A stretch of 64,000 bases of DNA from Ideonella alba (GTDB lineage: Bacteria; Pseudomonadota; Gammaproteobacteria; Burkholderiales; Burkholderiaceae_C), in the NCBI RefSeq assembly GCF_018069875.1, contig NZ_JAGQDF010000004.1:62001-126000 (forward strand), in the 5' to 3' direction. The translations under genes were made by a program, and so were the position numbers. The notes beneath the pieces were generated by a model. The model was not told where the DNA came from and did not search any database. It saw only the letters and a program-made list of their open reading frames with translations. Below are positions 21,148-29,526 of this stretch, in pieces (position 1 is the stretch's first letter; every line of letters begins with the position of its first letter).

Positions 21148-22575
21148 TCAGGGCCAGGCCGTCGGCGGCATCTGCGCATCCAGCTGGGCGATCACCGCCG
21201 CATGCGCCGGCGAGGCCGCCAGGTTGCGCAGCTCGCCGGGGTCGGCGACCACGTCGTAGAGCTCCTGCTCGCCGTTGGCATAGCGGATGTAGCGCCATTG
21301 CGCGGTGCGGATCGCATAGTCCAGGCCGGTGCTCTGCAGCGCATCGGCCTGGCGGCGGGTGATCAGCACCGGGCGATCCCAGGCCTGAGCCGGGTTGCTC
21401 AGCAGCGGCTGCAGGCTCTGGCCGTCCATCGAATAGGCCGGCGTCAGGCCATGCAGGCCCAGCAGGGTGGGCGCCAGGTCGGCCAGGCTGACCGGGGCGT
21501 TGACCACCGCCCCCGTCGTCTGGCCAGGCCGGCGGATCAGGAAGGGCACCCGGGTCGCGTGCTCCCACAACGCCATCTTGTGCCAGTGGAACTTCTCGCC
21601 CAGCATGAAGCCGTGGTCGCTCCAGAAGACCACCGTGGTGGTGTCGGCGTGCGGGCTGGCCGCCAGCGCGGCCAGCAGTCGGCCGATCTGCGCATCGACC
21701 CAGCTGATGCTGGCCAGGTAGCCGCGCACCGCCGAGGCCCACAGGCCCTGGCGCACGATGCAGTTGTGCATGTCAAAGCGCAGCGCGGTGGCGCGGCCTT
21801 CCGGGCCCAGATCGTCCAGGTCGTCCGGCGGGGCGTAGGGCAGCTGGATGCTGCTCAGCGGGTAGAGGTCGAAGTAGCGCTGCGGCACATACCAGCCGGT
21901 GTGGGTGCGGGTGAAGCCCACCGACAGGAAGAAGGGCTGGTCGGCGCTGTGCTGGTTCAGGAAATCGATGCCGGCCTGCGCATACTGGTAGTCGGGCTGG
22001 TTGTTGTCCTCGCCGCGCGCCGGTCCCCAGTCGAAGCCGTTCTCGCCCACCGGCGCCGGGCACTGCTTGTTGGTGTAGGGCATCGGGCTGGGCAGGGGCG
22101 TGGGCACCACCGACCAGATGTGGTCGATCTTGCCGAAGCGCTCGACGGTGTAGCCGGCGCTGGCGAACTGCTGGTCGACCGTCTGCTTGCCGGGGTTGAC
22201 GCTGCTGAAGGTGGCCGTGTTGTCGACCACCCCCGTGCGGCGCGGCAGCAGGCCCGACAGCACGCCAGCGCGCGCTGGCGAGCACACCGGTGCGGTGCAG
22301 TAGGCCCGCCGGAACACGGTGGAGCGGGCCGCCAGCGCATCCAGCGCAGGCGTGCGCACCTGGGGGTGGCCGCCCAGGAAGCCGACCCAGTCGTTCAGGT
22401 CGTCCACCGCGATCATCAGCACATTGCCGCTGATGGGCGGTGGCGGCGGGGGCGAGGGCGTGCCCGATCCGCCACCACCGCCGCAGGCCGTGGCCAGACC
22501 GCTCCAGCCGGCCAGGTGCAGCCAGCGCCGTCGGTTGATCAGCCCGGCCGGTGGCGGGGCGGGGTCACTGCTCAT
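21148..22575 (-). CDS. Sulfatase, Tat-type exported lipoprotein with Gly/Pro linker
   Basis: 475 residues from ATG 22575 (GGAAAGG lies upstream at good spacing). The N-terminus combines a twin-arginine motif (NRRRWLHLAG) with a lipobox ending LATAC (Cys31), then a Gly5 run and a Pro7 run, then the catalytic domain. The formylglycine signature CSPAR (Cys98 to Arg102), metal residues DD at 58-59 in IAVDDLNDW, and WSDHGFMLGEKFHWHK are intact, closest to iduronate-2-/choline-type sulfatases. It cleaves sulfate esters at the periplasmic face or cell surface. Cysteine maturation would need a formylglycine-generating enzyme, not present in the window. Confidence 0.9.
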   Translation of the reverse strand: MSSDPAPPPAGLINRRRWLHLAGWSGLATACGGGGGSGTPSPPPPPPISGNVLMIAVDDLNDWVGFLGGHPQVRTPALDALAARSTVFRRAYCTAPVCSPARAGVLSGLLPRRTGVVDNTATFSSVNPGKQTVDQQFASAGYTVERFGKIDHIWSVVPTPLPSPMPYTNKQCPAPVGENGFDWGPARGEDNNQPDYQYAQAGIDFLNQHSADQPFFLSVGFTRTHTGWYVPQRYFDLYPLSSIQLPYAPPDDLDDLGPEGRATALRFDMHNCIVRQGLWASAVRGYLASISWVDAQIGRLLAALAASPHADTTTVVFWSDHGFMLGEKFHWHKMALWEHATRVPFLIRRPGQTTGAVVNAPVSLADLAPTLLGLHGLTPAYSMDGQSLQPLLSNPAQAWDRPVLITRRQADALQSTGLDYAIRTAQWRYIRYANGEQELYDVVADPGELRNLAASPAHAAVIAQLDAQMPPTAWP

Positions 22576-22624
22576 CGGGGCCTTTCCACCCATGCGGGTG
22601 TCGGATCGGGCGACAGTCTAGGGC

Positions 22625-22653
22625 CTGTCCCGGACTGCAGATGATGCTAGACT
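22625..22653 (+). promoter_or_regulatory. Candidate promoter of the aroG leader transcript
   Basis: TGCTAGACT (22645-22653) is an extended -10-like element (TAGACT at 22648-22653). A weak -35-like CTGTCC lies at 22625-22630 with a 17-base spacer. The expected transcription start, about seven bases after the -10, coincides with the A of the leader ATG at 22660, so the leader mRNA may be leaderless. A nearly identical 13-base stretch occurs before the ECF sigma gene at 30159-30171. Confidence 0.5.
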
Positions 22654-22659
22654 TGGGTC

Positions 22660-22743
22660 ATGCATTGCGCATCGGCCTACTTTTTTGCGTACTTTTGGTT
22701 CTCGCCCCGATCGGCGGCTGGAGAGGCAATCGCGCGCAACTGA
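22660..22743 (+). CDS. Aromatic-rich leader peptide of aroG
   Basis: A 27-codon frame beginning ATG at 22660 and ending TGA at 22741-22743; a TAG in the same frame at 22648 excludes a longer protein. Codons 7-14 (22678-22701) encode YFFAYFWF: two Tyr, four Phe and one Trp in eight positions, with three TTT codons that are otherwise rare in this GC-rich DNA. No Shine-Dalgarno is seen, and the predicted transcript start is at or next to the ATG. The peptide itself is unlikely to have a function; ribosome stalling on its aromatic codons would report shortage of the end products of the pathway that AroG begins. See the attenuator entry. Confidence 0.85.
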   Translation: MHCASAYFFAYFWFSPRSAAGEAIARN

Positions 22744-22794
22744 GACCAAGCGAACACCCCCAGAAAACCGCCGGAACCCCCGGCGGTTTTTTTT
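22703..22794 (+). promoter_or_regulatory. Transcription attenuator of aroG (terminator/antiterminator)
   Basis: Terminator: AACCGCCGG (22766-22774), loop AACCC, CCGGCGGTT (22780-22788), extended by A4/T4 and followed by a run of eight T (22787-22794). Antiterminator: CGGCGGCTGG at 22712-22721 can pair with CCAG (22760-22763) plus CCGCCG (22768-22773), leaving an AAAA bulge, which consumes the terminator's 5' arm. Protector: CGCC (22703-22706) pairs with GGCG (22713-22716), occupying the antiterminator, and lies one codon after the aromatic run. A ribosome stalled on Tyr/Phe/Trp codons would cover the protector arm, free the antiterminator and allow aroG transcription; efficient translation restores termination. 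This is the logic of trp-type attenuation. Confidence 0.85.
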
Positions 22795-22834
22795 CGCCGG
22801 TCGGCCCCCAGCACCCACCCAGGAGAAGACCTCG

Positions 22835-23953
<1,119 letters not shown>

Positions 23954-24276: not shown

Positions 24277-26910
24277 TCAAGGCGCGGCGGCGCTGAGCGC
24301 CTGGGCCTCGCGAAACCAGCGCTGCAAGGCGCCGGGGATCTGGCCATCGGGGTGCAGCGCGGTCCACAGGCGCAGGGCCTGACGGCCGCGTTCGCGTGCG
24401 TCGTCACGGCGGCCCAGCGCGGCCAGCGCCTGGCCCTCGGTGCTGAGTGCCTGGGCCAGCTGCCAGCCCCGGGCGGCGTTGCTGGTGGCGTCGTCGCCCT
24501 GCATGATCGCCGCGACCTGGGCGGCACGGTGTGCGGCCTCGGCCGGGTCCTGCGACAGGCGCAGCCGGGCTGACCAGAGCAGCGCGTCGGCCCACCAGCG
24601 CTGGACGTAGAAATCGTGGCCGCCCTGGGCGCGACGCGACAGGGCTTCGGCGGCGGCGTCGATGCGCTGACGCGCCTCGGCGGGCTGGCCGGCATCGATC
24701 AGCAACCGCCCCTGCAGCAGACCCAGCAACACGCGGTCGCGTTGCAACACCTCGTTGCCCGGGTCCTCGGCGGACAGTGCGCGCATCGTCGCCTCGGCCT
24801 CGTCCAGCCGGGCGCGGCCCTCGGTGTTGCGGCCGGCCTGGTTCAGCGCCGCGCCGCGCACCACCCGGGCCATCGCGGTCTGGTGGCGGAAGTGCGAACT
24901 CTGCGGCGCGCGCCGAGCGGCCTCGTCACGCAGCGCCACCGCCTGCGCGGTGTGGGCCAGGGCCAGCGCGTTGTCACCGCGCAGCACACCCACGCTGCCC
25001 AGGCCGTGGTGGGCCCAGGCGGTCTGGTGCACCCACTCGACTTCACCCGGCTCGCGGGCGCGCATGCGCTCGAAAATCGCCAGTGCCTGCTGCCACAGCT
25101 GCAGCGCCTCCTCCGTGCGTCCCAGGTTGGACGCGGCCACGCTGCCGCCGGTGAGCACCGCGCGCCGGCCCAGCACCGTGGCCTGGCGCGACAGGGTCTG
25201 CAGGTCATCGGGCTTCTGGGCCACGATGCGCTCGACCAGGCGACTGGCCTCGGCCAGCGCCTCGTTCGCCGGGATCAACCGACCCTGGCGCAGCAGCAGG
25301 TCGCTGTGCAGCAGCCGCAGGTCGACCGCCTTGTCCAGCGCCGGCACATCGGCCTGCGGCAGGTACAGCGGCAGCAGCGCCAGCGCCTTCTCGGCGCTGC
25401 GCAGCGCATCGTCGGGCCGCTCCTGGCCGGGCGAGAAGGATTCGCCCTGCAGCACCGCCAGGCGGAACCAGGCCTCGGCCAGCTCGCGGGCCAGCCCGGC
25501 GTCATCGGCCACGTCGTGCGCCAGCGCGTCCAGGTAGCCGGCGGCGTCCTGCAGCAGCGCATCGCGCACCGCGGTGGCCCCGGGCAGGTGGGCGATCTGG
25601 TCGTGGTACTTGAAGACCATCTGGTTGGCCAGCTGGCGCACCTGGGCAAAGCGGGCCTCGGCGCGGGCGCGCTGGCGGTCGGCCTCGTGGGCCTGCCAGG
25701 TGGCCACGCCCACCCCCACCATCAGCGAGGACACGGCCAGCGCCGCCGCCGCACTGGCCGCCCGGTGGCGCAGCACAAAGCGGCTGAGCAGGTAGCCGGC
25801 GCTGGGCGCGCGGGCACTGACCGGCAGCCCCGCCAGGTGCGCCCGCACATCCGCCGCGAACGCATCCACGCTGGGGTAGCGCGCCGCCGGGGCCTTGTCC
25901 AGGGCCTTGAGCAGGATGTTGTCCAGGTCGCCCTTCAGGCGCTTGCGCGTGGCCATCCACTGCGGATCACTCACCAGCCCGGGGCTCAGCGCGCTGGGCC
26001 GCGTGGGCTCTTCCTCCAGCACACTGCGGGCGGCTTCCTGTGGCGTCGTCGCGTTCCGGCCGTAGGGCCGCAGCCCGGTGAGCATCACGTACAGCAGCAC
26101 GCCCAGGCTGTAGATGTCGGTCAGCGTGCCCACCGGCTCGCCGCGCACCTGCTCGGGGCTGGCGTAGTTGGGCGTGTAGGGCCGCGGGCCAGCGCCAGTG
26201 TGCTCGCCCTCGGCCGGGTCCAGCGCCTTGGCGATGCCGAAGTCCAGCAGCTTGACCTGGCCGTCCTCGGTGACCAGCACGTTGCTGGGCTTGAGGTCGC
26301 GGTGCACCAGCAGCTGCCGGTGGGCGAAGGCCACCGCGTCGGCCAGCTGCAGGAACAGGCCCAGCCGCGCCTCCAGCGCCAGGCCCTCGCAGGCCTGGTC
26401 GATCGGGCGGCCGCGCACCAGCTCCATCACGAAGTAGGGCAGCCCGCTGGCGCTGCGCCCGGCGTCCAGCAGGTGGGCGATGTGCGGGTGGTTCAGCCGC
26501 GCCAGCGCGCGCTGCTCCAGCGCGAAGCGCGCCAGCACCGCGGCCGAGTCCATGCCGCGCTTGAGCACCTTGACCGCCGCCTCGCCGTCCCAGGCGCCGT
26601 CGGCGCGGCGCGCCAGCATCACCTCGGCCATGCCGCCCGCCCCCAGCGGGCCGACGATCTCCCAGGCGCCCAGGCGCTCGCCGGGGGACAGCAGCAGTGG
26701 GGGCGCGGCCGGCTCGGTCGGGGCCAGGAAGTCGTCGGTCGTCGCCTCGCTCAGTGCGCGCTCGTGCGCCAGCAGGCTCAGCACCTCGTCCTGCACCGCC
26801 GCGTCGGCCCCGCTGGCGCGCACGAAGGCCTCGCGCGCCGCCTGCGGATGCTCCAGCGCTGCCTCGAACAGCGCCTTGACCTGTGGCCAGTGGGTGTCGC
26901 CGGCGGCCAT
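24277..26910 (-). CDS. Membrane serine/threonine protein kinase with C-terminal TPR-like sensor (kinase 1)
   Basis: 877 residues. A cytosolic N-terminus (1-75), then a Hanks-type kinase domain (about 82-345): Gly loop GPLGAGGM (87-94), ATP Lys114 in AAVKVLK, catalytic HRDLKPSN (203-210), DFG (223-225), and SPE in place of APE (251-253). A single transmembrane segment (about 385-404, AAAALAVSSLMVGVGVATW) is followed by ~470 periplasmic residues made of TPR-like helices (e.g. NALALAHTAQAVALRDEAARR). All catalytic residues are intact. It is the second gene after kinase 2, with a 6-base gap, and a divergent ECF sigma gene is nearby, so the sigma factor is a likely substrate. Its first ~400 residues are almost identical to kinase 2; see the repeat entry. 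Confidence 0.92.
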   Translation of the reverse strand: MAAGDTHWPQVKALFEAALEHPQAAREAFVRASGADAAVQDEVLSLLAHERALSEATTDDFLAPTEPAAPPLLLSPGERLGAWEIVGPLGAGGMAEVMLARRADGAWDGEAAVKVLKRGMDSAAVLARFALEQRALARLNHPHIAHLLDAGRSASGLPYFVMELVRGRPIDQACEGLALEARLGLFLQLADAVAFAHRQLLVHRDLKPSNVLVTEDGQVKLLDFGIAKALDPAEGEHTGAGPRPYTPNYASPEQVRGEPVGTLTDIYSLGVLLYVMLTGLRPYGRNATTPQEAARSVLEEEPTRPSALSPGLVSDPQWMATRKRLKGDLDNILLKALDKAPAARYPSVDAFAADVRAHLAGLPVSARAPSAGYLLSRFVLRHRAASAAAALAVSSLMVGVGVATWQAHEADRQRARAEARFAQVRQLANQMVFKYHDQIAHLPGATAVRDALLQDAAGYLDALAHDVADDAGLARELAEAWFRLAVLQGESFSPGQERPDDALRSAEKALALLPLYLPQADVPALDKAVDLRLLHSDLLLRQGRLIPANEALAEASRLVERIVAQKPDDLQTLSRQATVLGRRAVLTGGSVAASNLGRTEEALQLWQQALAIFERMRAREPGEVEWVHQTAWAHHGLGSVGVLRGDNALALAHTAQAVALRDEAARRAPQSSHFRHQTAMARVVRGAALNQAGRNTEGRARLDEAEATMRALSAEDPGNEVLQRDRVLLGLLQGRLLIDAGQPAEARQRIDAAAEALSRRAQGGHDFYVQRWWADALLWSARLRLSQDPAEAAHRAAQVAAIMQGDDATSNAARGWQLAQALSTEGQALAALGRRDDARERGRQALRLWTALHPDGQIPGALQRWFREAQALSAAAP
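25900..26802. repeat. Direct duplicate of kinase-domain DNA, copy in kinase 1
   Basis: This 903-base block is identical by eye to 28513-29415 at a constant offset of 2613 bases without gaps. Flanking sequence on the low side (about 25739-25899) is also very similar, with a few single-base changes; beyond 26802 the two copies differ increasingly. It encodes about residues 37-337 of the kinases, nearly the whole catalytic domain. Synonymous sites have not diverged, implying recent duplication or ongoing gene conversion. Confidence 0.9.
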
Positions 26911-26916
26911 GGCAGG

Positions 26917-29526
26917 CTACAGGCCGATCGGCTCGCCGCGCGCCAGCGCATCGCGGCGGCGCAGGTGCTCGCCGTTGAGCGCCCGCAGCGCGTCGGCCGC
27001 CTGGTAATGCTGCAGCGCGCGCTGGCGCCAGGCGGGGGCGGCGGCGGGCTCGGCCGCGGCCATCACCAGCGCAGACTCGGCCAGGTTGAGCAGCGCATCA
27101 CCGGCCTTGGACTCGCGCGACAGCGGCTCCAGGATCGCCTGGCTCTGGCGCAGCTGCGTCAGGGCCTCGTCGCGCCGTTGCAGCCCCAGCAGCGCGACCG
27201 CACGGTAGATGCCCAGCCAGGCCCACAGGCGCTCAGGGTGTGGCCCGGGCTTGGCCTCGCGCTGGCGCTGCCAGTAGGCCAGCGCGCTGTCGAGTACCGG
27301 CAGCGCGTCGGCCGAGCGGCCGACCAGCGCCAGTGCCCGCCCATGGTGCTGGGCCACGCGCGGCAGGTTCTCGGCCCATTTGCTCTGCGGGCCGTTCTCG
27401 GCGGCCAGGCGCTGCACCGTGTCCCAGGCCGCCTGGCTGGCCAGCACGGCACGCGCGGGCTGGTCGGCACGCATCAGGATCACCGCGGCATTGGTGGCCT
27501 CGGTGACCAGCTCGTCACGCCGGCCGGTGTGGAAGGGCTCGGCCTGCACCGCGCGCAGGCGCTGCTGCCAGGCGGCTTCGGCGTCACCGCGCGAGGCGTC
27601 GAGCCGGCCCAGCCGCGCATGGGTGATCGCCCGCGCCCCGAGCAGCGTGCCCAGCAGCGGCGCCAGGCTGGCGTCGCCGTCGCGCTCCAGGCGGCGCAGG
27701 GCCTGCTCGGCCTGGCCGTACAGCGCCAGCGCGTCCTCGGGGCGGTTCAGGCTGGCCACGGTCTGCTGGTCGAAGAACTGCGCCTCGACGATCTGCAGCG
27801 AGGCGCGCTGCACCTGCAGGTCGCGCTGCTCGGCCGCTGGCAGGCGCTGCAGCCGCTGGTCGATCAGCGCCATCGCCTCCTCCAGCGTCTTCAGGCCCTG
27901 CTCGGGCTGGCCGTCGGCGCGCTGCGCGCGGGCCCGGATCTGCAGCGCCTGCGACAGCGACAGGCTCAGCGCGGCGTCGTCGGGCCGCGCCGGCAGCACC
28001 TGCCGGGCCAGCGTGATCGCGTGCTCGGCATGCTGGCGCGCCTCGCCCATCTTGCTGAGCGACACGCCGCCGTCGTCGCCACCCACCTGGGCCAGGCGGG
28101 CGTAGACGCCGGCCAGCAGGGCCAGCCATTCGGCATCGTCGCCGGCCTCCTGTTCGACCTCGCTGAGCTGGCCCAGCAGGCCCTTGAGCAGGTTCTCCTT
28201 GACCACCAGGCCGCCGGGCAGATAGGTGACGGCATCGGCATAGCGCAGCACCACGTCGCGGCTCAGGCCGCGCAACTGCTCCAGCCGCTGGCCGGCGACA
28301 TGGGCCTGCCAGCCGGCCACACCGGCGCCCACCACCAGGGACACCGCCGCCAGCGCCGCCGCCGCACTGGCCGCCCGGTGGCGCAGCACGAAGCGGCTGA
28401 GCAGGTAGCCGGCGCTGGGCGCACGGGCACTGACCGGCAGCCCCGCCAGGTGGGCCCGCACATCCGCCGCGAACGCGTCCACGCTGGGGTAGCGCGCCGC
28501 CGGGGCCTTGTACAGGGCCTTGAGCAGGATGTTGTCCAGGTCGCCCTTCAGGCGCTTGCGCGTGGCCATCCACTGCGGATCACTCACCAGCCCGGGGCTC
28601 AGCGCGCTGGGCCGCGTGGGCTCTTCCTCCAGCACACTGCGGGCGGCTTCCTGTGGCGTCGTCGCGTTCCGGCCGTAGGGCCGCAGCCCGGTGAGCATCA
28701 CGTACAGCAGCACGCCCAGGCTGTAGATGTCGGTCAGCGTGCCCACCGGCTCGCCGCGCACCTGCTCGGGGCTGGCGTAGTTGGGCGTGTAGGGCCGCGG
28801 GCCAGCGCCAGTGTGCTCGCCCTCGGCCGGGTCCAGCGCCTTGGCGATGCCGAAGTCCAGCAGCTTGACCTGGCCGTCCTCGGTGACCAGCACGTTGCTG
28901 GGCTTGAGGTCGCGGTGCACCAGCAGCTGCCGGTGGGCGAAGGCCACCGCGTCGGCCAGCTGCAGGAACAGGCCCAGCCGCGCCTCCAGCGCCAGGCCCT
29001 CGCAGGCCTGGTCGATCGGGCGGCCGCGCACCAGCTCCATCACGAAGTAGGGCAGCCCGCTGGCGCTGCGCCCGGCGTCCAGCAGGTGGGCGATGTGCGG
29101 GTGGTTCAGCCGCGCCAGCGCGCGCTGCTCCAGCGCGAAGCGCGCCAGCACCGCGGCCGAGTCCATGCCGCGCTTGAGCACCTTGACCGCCGCCTCGCCG
29201 TCCCAGGCGCCGTCGGCGCGGCGCGCCAGCATCACCTCGGCCATGCCGCCCGCCCCCAGCGGGCCGACGATCTCCCAGGCGCCCAGGCGCTCGCCGGGGG
29301 ACAGCAGCAGTGGGGGCGCGGCCGGCTCGGTCGGGGCCAGGAAGTCGTCGGTCGTCGCCTCGCTCAGTGCGCGCTCGTGCGCCAGCAGGCTCAGCACCTC
29401 GTCCTGCACCGCCGCATCCGCACCGCTGGCGCGCACGAAGGCCTCGCGCGCCGCCTGCGGATGCTCCAGCGCCGACTCGAACAGCGCCTTGACCTGTTGC
29501 CAGTGTTCGCCCGTGTGCACGCTCAT
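26917..29526 (-). CDS. Membrane serine/threonine protein kinase with unrelated C-terminal helical sensor (kinase 2)
   Basis: 869 residues, kinase numbering shifted by +1 from kinase 1, with HRDLKPSN at 204-211 and DFG at 224-226. Inside the near-identical region the clear amino acid change is Tyr339 in place of Asp (KALYKAPA). The N-terminal 20 residues and everything after the transmembrane segment (about residue 405 on) differ: after AGQRLEQLRGLSRDVVLRYADAV the sequence is again TPR-like helices but not alignable by eye with kinase 1. The ATG at 29526 lies 64 bases after the stop of the upstream lipoprotein gene on the same strand, so lipoprotein-kinase 2-kinase 1 can form one operon. Confidence 0.92.
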   Translation of the reverse strand: MSVHTGEHWQQVKALFESALEHPQAAREAFVRASGADAAVQDEVLSLLAHERALSEATTDDFLAPTEPAAPPLLLSPGERLGAWEIVGPLGAGGMAEVMLARRADGAWDGEAAVKVLKRGMDSAAVLARFALEQRALARLNHPHIAHLLDAGRSASGLPYFVMELVRGRPIDQACEGLALEARLGLFLQLADAVAFAHRQLLVHRDLKPSNVLVTEDGQVKLLDFGIAKALDPAEGEHTGAGPRPYTPNYASPEQVRGEPVGTLTDIYSLGVLLYVMLTGLRPYGRNATTPQEAARSVLEEEPTRPSALSPGLVSDPQWMATRKRLKGDLDNILLKALYKAPAARYPSVDAFAADVRAHLAGLPVSARAPSAGYLLSRFVLRHRAASAAAALAAVSLVVGAGVAGWQAHVAGQRLEQLRGLSRDVVLRYADAVTYLPGGLVVKENLLKGLLGQLSEVEQEAGDDAEWLALLAGVYARLAQVGGDDGGVSLSKMGEARQHAEHAITLARQVLPARPDDAALSLSLSQALQIRARAQRADGQPEQGLKTLEEAMALIDQRLQRLPAAEQRDLQVQRASLQIVEAQFFDQQTVASLNRPEDALALYGQAEQALRRLERDGDASLAPLLGTLLGARAITHARLGRLDASRGDAEAAWQQRLRAVQAEPFHTGRRDELVTEATNAAVILMRADQPARAVLASQAAWDTVQRLAAENGPQSKWAENLPRVAQHHGRALALVGRSADALPVLDSALAYWQRQREAKPGPHPERLWAWLGIYRAVALLGLQRRDEALTQLRQSQAILEPLSRESKAGDALLNLAESALVMAAAEPAAAPAWRQRALQHYQAADALRALNGEHLRRRDALARGEPIGL
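28513..29415. repeat. Direct duplicate of kinase-domain DNA, copy in kinase 2
   Basis: Partner of 25900-26802. The first difference at the low end is 28512 (A, giving Tyr) against 25899 (C, giving Asp); at the high end the first is 29416 (A) against 26803 (G). Recombination between the copies would delete one kinase and leave a single hybrid gene. Confidence 0.9.

Follow-up and report, generated by a model that had tools for sequence, protein, structure and literature searches.

A Predicted Ribosome-Mediated Attenuator with an Aromatic Leader Peptide Upstream of the DAHP Synthase Gene aroG in Ideonella alba and Other Burkholderiales

The aroG Locus

The window considered here, by which we mean the whole stretch of 64,000 nucleotides of Ideonella alba DNA that was analysed, contains an aroG gene at positions 22835..23953 that encodes a 3-deoxy-7-phosphoheptulonate (DAHP) synthase of 372 amino acids. 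This gene and all of the leader features described below are on the forward strand. The assignment comes from the NCBIfam model TIGR00034 (aroFGH), which the protein matches with 540.9 bits (cut-off 173.2); its score against the AroG-specific model NF006723, 552.6, is just under the cut-off of 568. A Shine-Dalgarno sequence, AGGAGA, is present at 22821..22826. The same genome encodes a second DAHP synthase (C3, locus L002) that is 58% identical to the aroG product, and a search upstream of this second gene found no leader ORF.

A short ORF of 27 codons, MHCASAYFFAYFWFSPRSAAGEAIARN, precedes aroG at 22660..22743, with its ATG at 22660 and a TGA stop codon at 22741-22743. The predicted sensing codons, recognized by the conservation of residues in each codon column, are located at 22678..22701 and encode Tyr-Phe-Phe-Ala-Tyr-Phe-Trp-Phe (YFFAYFWF), three of them being TTT. 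A putative extended -10 promoter box (TGcTAGACT) is found at 22645..22653, leaving a gap of six bases to the ATG. Four RNA segments, referred to below as arms 1 to 4, complete the element. Arm 1 (TTCTCGCCCC, 22699..22708) overlaps the last Phe codon and can pair with arm 2, forming a protector. Arm 2 (CGGCGGCTGGAGAG, 22712..22725), in which CGGCGGCTGG is read directly from the window sequence at 22712-22721, would be the 5' arm of an antiterminator. Arm 3 (CCAGAAAACCGCCGG, 22760..22774), with CCAG at 22760-22763 and CCGCCGG at 22768-22774, is assigned from the alignment, the folds and its co-change with the other arms, and would be both the 3' arm of the antiterminator and the 5' arm of the terminator. 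Arm 4 (CCGGCGG, 22780-22786) and a tract of eight T residues (22787-22794) make up the 3' half of an intrinsic terminator (22780..22794). An earlier, sequence-only reading of this DNA had listed the 27-codon leader at 22660-22743, the YFFAYFWF run, the three TTT codons and a terminator with eight T residues, and all of these are present.

The long frame upstream of the leader (21148-22593) is on the opposite strand, is divergent from the leader and presumably encodes a secreted sulfatase, which is how it reads to us. Two tandem genes, 24277-26910 and 26917-29526, both on the reverse strand, look by eye like protein kinases. They are nearly identical at their starts (1102 of 1110 nucleotides over positions 60-1170), and beyond this shared first part they have 5-10 identical residues in 50 when compared without gaps; from these sequences, the pattern is like that left by recent duplication or gene conversion.

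When the 64 kb window is translated in all six frames, a run with six or more aromatic residues in nine occurs a single time, namely at the leader. Short ORFs with such a run near an ATG were found upstream of aroG at 76 of 95 loci, and dinucleotide-shuffled controls gave 0 in each of 20 sets. Taken as a whole, the 210-nt stretch is unremarkable in its stability (z -1.84; 11 of 200 shuffles were as stable). A simple promoter and terminator scan of the region, which included a strict sigma-70 promoter search, found nothing; the terminator was missed because the fixed rule of the scanner wants T residues after the stem, and A:T pairs take the first T of the run into the stem. At the Rfam gathering score, only a tRNA was found in the window. 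We conclude that the element is beyond chance.

Occurrence in Other Genomes

The search with aroG as the query contributed 80 named loci that were kept, and the leader DNA as the query matched 24 of 60 related genomes, including 14 of the 15 of the same genus. A forward aroG could be read at 98 loci, and 88 of these have an upstream leader ORF, defined by at least four aromatic residues in nine codons; the count includes the window twice (L001 is the same as L083). The 10 loci in which no leader ORF was found are L002, L045, L079, L080, four Polynucleobacter loci and two Cupriavidus loci. The latter six (L052, L053, L056, L061, L065 and L068), like L079 and L080, are without the element, and the six are possible losses; two loci that are also labelled Polynucleobacter, L038 and L044, carry the leader. 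Eight further loci, in the other orientation, carry the element with 86-113 bits. L001 and L045, the latter on a cut contig, were dropped before the counts that follow, L070 was excluded from the alignment for its weak leader (24.5 bits), and L105 and L108, which are short DNA matches without a forward aroG, are outside the examined loci.

The covariance model R1 was built from 86 aligned elements and contains no aroG sequence. Having only eight base pairs over 135 positions, it is mostly a sequence profile. The genome of I. alba itself has one full-length match. A set of 200 genomes of the order, this one among them, gave 72 with a match at E <= 1e-3, and 51 of these matches are full length; a full-length match is absent from the other 149, in a search whose filters lose weak matches, and partial matches, mostly to the terminator half, were left uncounted. 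A search of 276 genomes of the class added four full-length matches outside the order. From the resulting 54 matches outside the I. alba genome, 53 were fetched (49 of the 50 in the order and all four others), the remaining one having E = 9.9e-4.

A DAHP synthase gene is downstream of all 53 fetched matches, with its start estimated at 98-226 nt from the leader start, and none of the 53 stands before any other gene; this set is partly dependent on the training set, as L118 duplicates one of the training elements and related copies are to be expected before the same gene. At least four aromatic residues in nine codons are present in 52 of these more distant leaders, and the exception, L159, has three. 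In eight of the 53 the model start is neither ATG nor GTG, and so the leader start is uncertain for these. In L133 (1501-3130) the leader precedes two tandem DAHP synthase genes, which means that one attenuator may control both. The element also accompanies a DAHP synthase gene in the Solimonas record L058 and in four class genomes outside the order (L162, L163, L164 and L165; family codes f61 and f66), which suggests either an old presence or a transfer together with the gene.

Judged from these sequence comparisons, the attenuator is real and widespread among the Burkholderiales, the computational evidence being strong for its anatomy and good for the predicted mechanism.

Leader Codons

The Y, F, W, F and S residues of the block are conserved in 62/85, 82/85, 67/86, 75/86 and 67/84 leaders, respectively. 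The Tyr and Ser codons clearly vary synonymously, and so do the earlier Phe and Tyr codons. The last two Phe codons of the block are different; they are kept as TTT in 75/85 and as TTC in 68/86 leaders, which implies that an RNA or codon constraint adds to the peptide constraint, and arm 1 (UUCUC) starts at the conserved TTC codon. Phe codons as a whole are TTT in 235 and TTC in 135 of 370 cases in the 86 leaders; at the same loci, the numbers for the aroG genes are 130 and 590 of 720. The exact triplet FYF occurs in 45 of the 86 leaders, and the leader in the window (YFFAYFWF) is without it.

The sequence-only reading proposed that several aromatic aminoacyl-tRNAs are sensed at once. The codons of the nearer set fit this proposal, as 74 of the 86 leaders have Phe, Tyr and Trp together; however, only 26 of the 53 more distant leaders do so, and Phe dominates. 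A rival view is the same attenuator with an effective signal that is essentially phenylalanine alone, the Tyr and Trp codons contributing little. Phe accounts for 370 of the 585 aromatic codons in the 86 leaders, it occupies the last block codon and the second codon before it in the high proportions given above (75/86 and 82/85), and it is present in all 53 distant leaders, while Tyr is present in 48 and Trp in only 27. In addition, the C. glutamicum leader AroR holds Phe-Tyr-Phe, and the portion of the account consulted reports that tyrosine availability is irrelevant there (PMC11802643). What speaks for the other two amino acids is that the nearer set keeps Trp in place in 67/86 and Tyr in 62/85 leaders, that most of its members have all three aromatic residues, and that the outcome in the folding model described below does not depend on which codon of the block the ribosome stalls at. 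We regard a signal of phenylalanine alone as a serious possibility, with a little more than one chance in three.

Conserved RNA Arms

Terminators were located by a motif rule, as 22 of the 87 hairpins are bulged or long-looped and a simpler finder recovered 65 of the 87. The alignment of 86 elements has an intrinsic terminator before the gene, with the hairpin CCGCCG/CGGCGG and a T-run, and the RNAalifold consensus predicts this 8-bp hairpin as the sole helix. Both sides of the pair adjoining the core have changed in 3/86 elements; covariation in the terminator is sparse because the core is nearly invariant. The antiterminator formed by arms 2 and 3 has a mean energy of -19.5 kcal/mol and a mean z of -2.3.

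Arm 3 contains a variable base, which is G in 98, A in 38 and another base in three of the 139 elements (the 86 plus the 53 distant ones). Its partner in arm 4 is C in all 98 of the G-type and T in 34 of the 38 A-type elements. Arm 2, which was placed without using this base, fits it in 69 of the 98 G-type elements (nine against, 20 ties) and in 25 of the 38 A-type elements (seven against, six ties). On the aroG tree the arm-3 type has changed four times, which provides two to three independent pairs that are concordant or undecided and not significant. For the inner 2:3 stem just after GGCGG, the element's own partner beats all 1000 permutations (77 distinct pairs, relatedness not removed). 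The compensatory changes that the sequence-only reading called for thus exist, and arms 2, 3 and 4 change together in these alignments, though in few independent events. The protector that it described fares differently. The pairing of arms 1 and 2 is plausible and folds (mean -10.6 kcal/mol), but its stability is ordinary (z -0.87) and a search for covariation beyond conservation found none, 392 of 500 permutations being as good.

GGCGG in arm 2 is exact in 79 of the 86 elements, and in these 79 (the other seven rows were dropped from the phase count) it is read in phases 0, 2 and 1 in 52, 26 and one cases, respectively. Because the phases differ, it is the RNA and not the peptide that is conserved behind the block. 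This observation bears on the idea that the short ORF encodes a functional small peptide and that the terminator is an ordinary one with no attenuation. In favour of such a peptide, the leaders share a hydrophobic aromatic core resembling FYFxYFWFS. However, the leader stop codon falls anywhere from 6 to 32 nt past the start of GGCGG, the terminator arms match an arm that is inside the ORF, and the distant copies are upstream of a DAHP synthase gene in 53/53 cases. The functional micropeptide was rejected on these grounds, and we would give it hardly any chance of being correct.

Start of the Leader

Of 87 relatives, 80 have an extended -10 sequence, TGnTAnnnT, in the 30 nt before the leader start, whereas a control stretch from -70 to -40 has it in 0/87. 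The distance from the end of the -10 box to the leader ATG is 6-8 nt in 75 of the 87, and the hexamer is TACATT in 55 of the 87 and TAGACT in the window. A Shine-Dalgarno-like motif before the leader was found in only 2/87. With a -10 box directly before the ATG and Shine-Dalgarno motifs rare, the transcript is predicted to begin at the ATG; in the window, we infer a transcription start at 22660, on or within about two bases of the A of the ATG. The leader mRNA, as far as can be judged from these motifs, is probably leaderless. The signal is weaker in the 53 distant matches, where 18 have an extended -10, 26 have TAnnnT at -20 to -3 and two have an SD-like motif.

These promoter sequences are also relevant to another view, namely that the terminator merely ends transcription coming from elsewhere, or that a DNA-binding regulator such as TyrR or TrpR has its site here. 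A terminator is present, and the genome has one borderline match (27.0 bits, in a frame of 1059 codons) to the helix-turn-helix model PF18024, which we take to be a marker of TyrR. On the other hand, the upstream long frame is on the other strand, a conserved extended -10 sits between that frame and the terminator, no match to the Trp repressor family was found in the genome, and the conservation is located in the leader codons and the RNA arms. Both versions were rejected, and we consider them very improbable.

Proposed Mechanism and Folding by Ribosome Position

The attenuator that we propose would operate as follows. Transcription would start on the leader ATG or next to it, and the leaderless end would be taken up by a ribosome, which begins translation there. 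When charged Phe, Tyr or Trp tRNA is short, the ribosome would stall in YFFAYFWF and block the pairing of arm 1, leaving arm 2 free; arm 2 would pair with arm 3 once the latter is made, the terminator formed by arms 3 and 4 would come too late, and aroG would be transcribed. When charged tRNAs are ample, the ribosome would move on and cover arm 2, or arm 2 would pair with arm 1; arm 3 would then be free for arm 4, and transcription would end in the T-tract near 22787-22794.

Folding of the full-length RNA at equilibrium does not by itself produce this switch. The terminator wins at every ribosome position in the window element, in all but at most nine of the 86 elements at any ribosome position, and throughout in the E. 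coli trpL control, and so the switch needs kinetics. We therefore computed co-transcriptional folding, i.e., the upstream pairing of arm 3 with any partner before arm 4 is made, again with E. coli trpL as the control. The mean probability that arm 3 is paired is 0.92-0.99 with the ribosomal A site from eight codons before up to the last aromatic codon; past this codon it is 0.57 at +1, 0.18 at +2 and about 0.37 at +3 to +6. In 69 of the 79 elements, the probability first drops below 0.5 one or two codons past the block. Ribosome footprints of 9 to 15 nt gave the same pattern, the step shifting by about two codons in all. In trpL, pairing is high at codons 7-12, the Trp codons being 10 and 11, and is absent once the stop codon is reached.

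When no ribosome is present, 41 of the 86 elements have arm 3 paired (P > 0.5), and the value for the window element is 0.81, versus 0.26 for trpL. In the window element, arm 3 is also re-paired upstream (P 0.77-0.94) with the ribosome on codons 19, 20 and 22-26. Because arm 3 is paired both without a ribosome and at these late codons, termination without translation may be weak; in this model, termination may depend on a ribosome getting as far as the stop codon.

The sequence-only reading had called the element a trp-style attenuator before aroG, and this description is borne out by the conservation of the aromatic codons, the competing stems and the T-tract in relatives. Considering both the alignments and the folding model, a ribosome-mediated transcription attenuator of the DAHP synthase gene is, in our opinion, highly probable.

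Comparison with Known Attenuators

The E. coli trpL leader has its own ribosome-binding site. The competing-arm logic and the folding-model behaviour of trpL-trpE are the same as those of the window element; however, trpL has Trp codons and its target is the Trp branch, whereas the window element is at the common entry. E. coli pheL-pheA shares a Phe-rich leader and a terminator with the window element, but its target is pheA, whereas the window element targets aroG and adds Tyr and Trp codons. The Rfam family RF01859 (Phe_leader) matches the window element over its full length at 33.2 bits, which is below the gathering score of 55; Phe_leader was matched in two of 15 sources, the best score being 36.7 bits (L087), and membership in this family was rejected because both scores are below the gathering score.

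Leader peptides translated without a ribosome-binding site are not new either. The trpL of Sinorhizobium is a leaderless leader peptide, and Morbach (2000) is said to have described another in ilvBNC of C. glutamicum. The aroG leader resembles these two in its predicted start and differs in belonging to the Burkholderiales and in having a DAHP synthase gene as the target. Vitreschak et al. (2004), cited in PMC1262725, reportedly treated attenuators of proteobacteria, and Neshat et al. (2014) reportedly dealt with the AroR-aroF attenuator of C. glutamicum.

This last system is among the closest precedents. As described in the available parts of two accounts, AroR-aroF is a DAHP synthase attenuator with a Phe-Tyr-Phe-containing leader in which stalling raises transcription (PMC11802643, PMC4046766). 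It is like the window element in having an aromatic leader peptide before a DAHP synthase gene and differs in that C. glutamicum is an actinobacterium and the system is Phe-responsive and Tyr-insensitive by report, with no Trp mentioned in those parts; the likeness is one of description. Candidates for aroF and aroH of Shewanella appear in the portion consulted of PMC2659441, and the corresponding portion of PMC2965389 treats premature terminators with DAHP unmentioned. E. coli aroF and aroH are described as being under TyrR and TrpR (PMC11802643, in part), and the TrpR and TyrR regulons are described in gammaproteobacterial lineages in the excerpts available from a comparative proteobacterial regulon study (PMC5343134).

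A DAHP synthase attenuator in the Burkholderiales was not found among the literature matches listed, and subscription papers could mention one. The sequence-only reading knew of no such element described for aroG in this group. The listed matches agree with this for the Burkholderiales, but C. glutamicum provides a precedent outside them, according to the parts of its accounts cited above. The mechanism is thus already familiar from trp and phe, and the type of gene that it controls also has a precedent. What appear to be new are the RNA family, the three-aromatic leader and the leaderless start in the Burkholderiales.

Conclusions

A broader proposal is that the Burkholderiales have a large family of such RNAs, with some outlying members in other parts of the class. 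In this family a single leaderless leader peptide would respond to all three kinds of aromatic aminoacyl-tRNA, and the element would set how much enters the shikimate pathway, replacing the TyrR and TrpR control of gammaproteobacteria. We offer this proposal tentatively, at about two chances in five. If the leaderless three-aromatic reading is true, the first ribosome would be loaded while RNA polymerase is close, because the start codon is the end of the RNA, and the choice of amino acids that are sensed would be subject to evolution, as Trp is often dropped in the distant members.

The synthesis of aromatic amino acids begins with DAHP synthase, and in this element many Burkholderiales would share a switch at that point. 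The 86 aligned elements and the 53 distant matches make up a natural set on leaderless ribosome-polymerase coupling.
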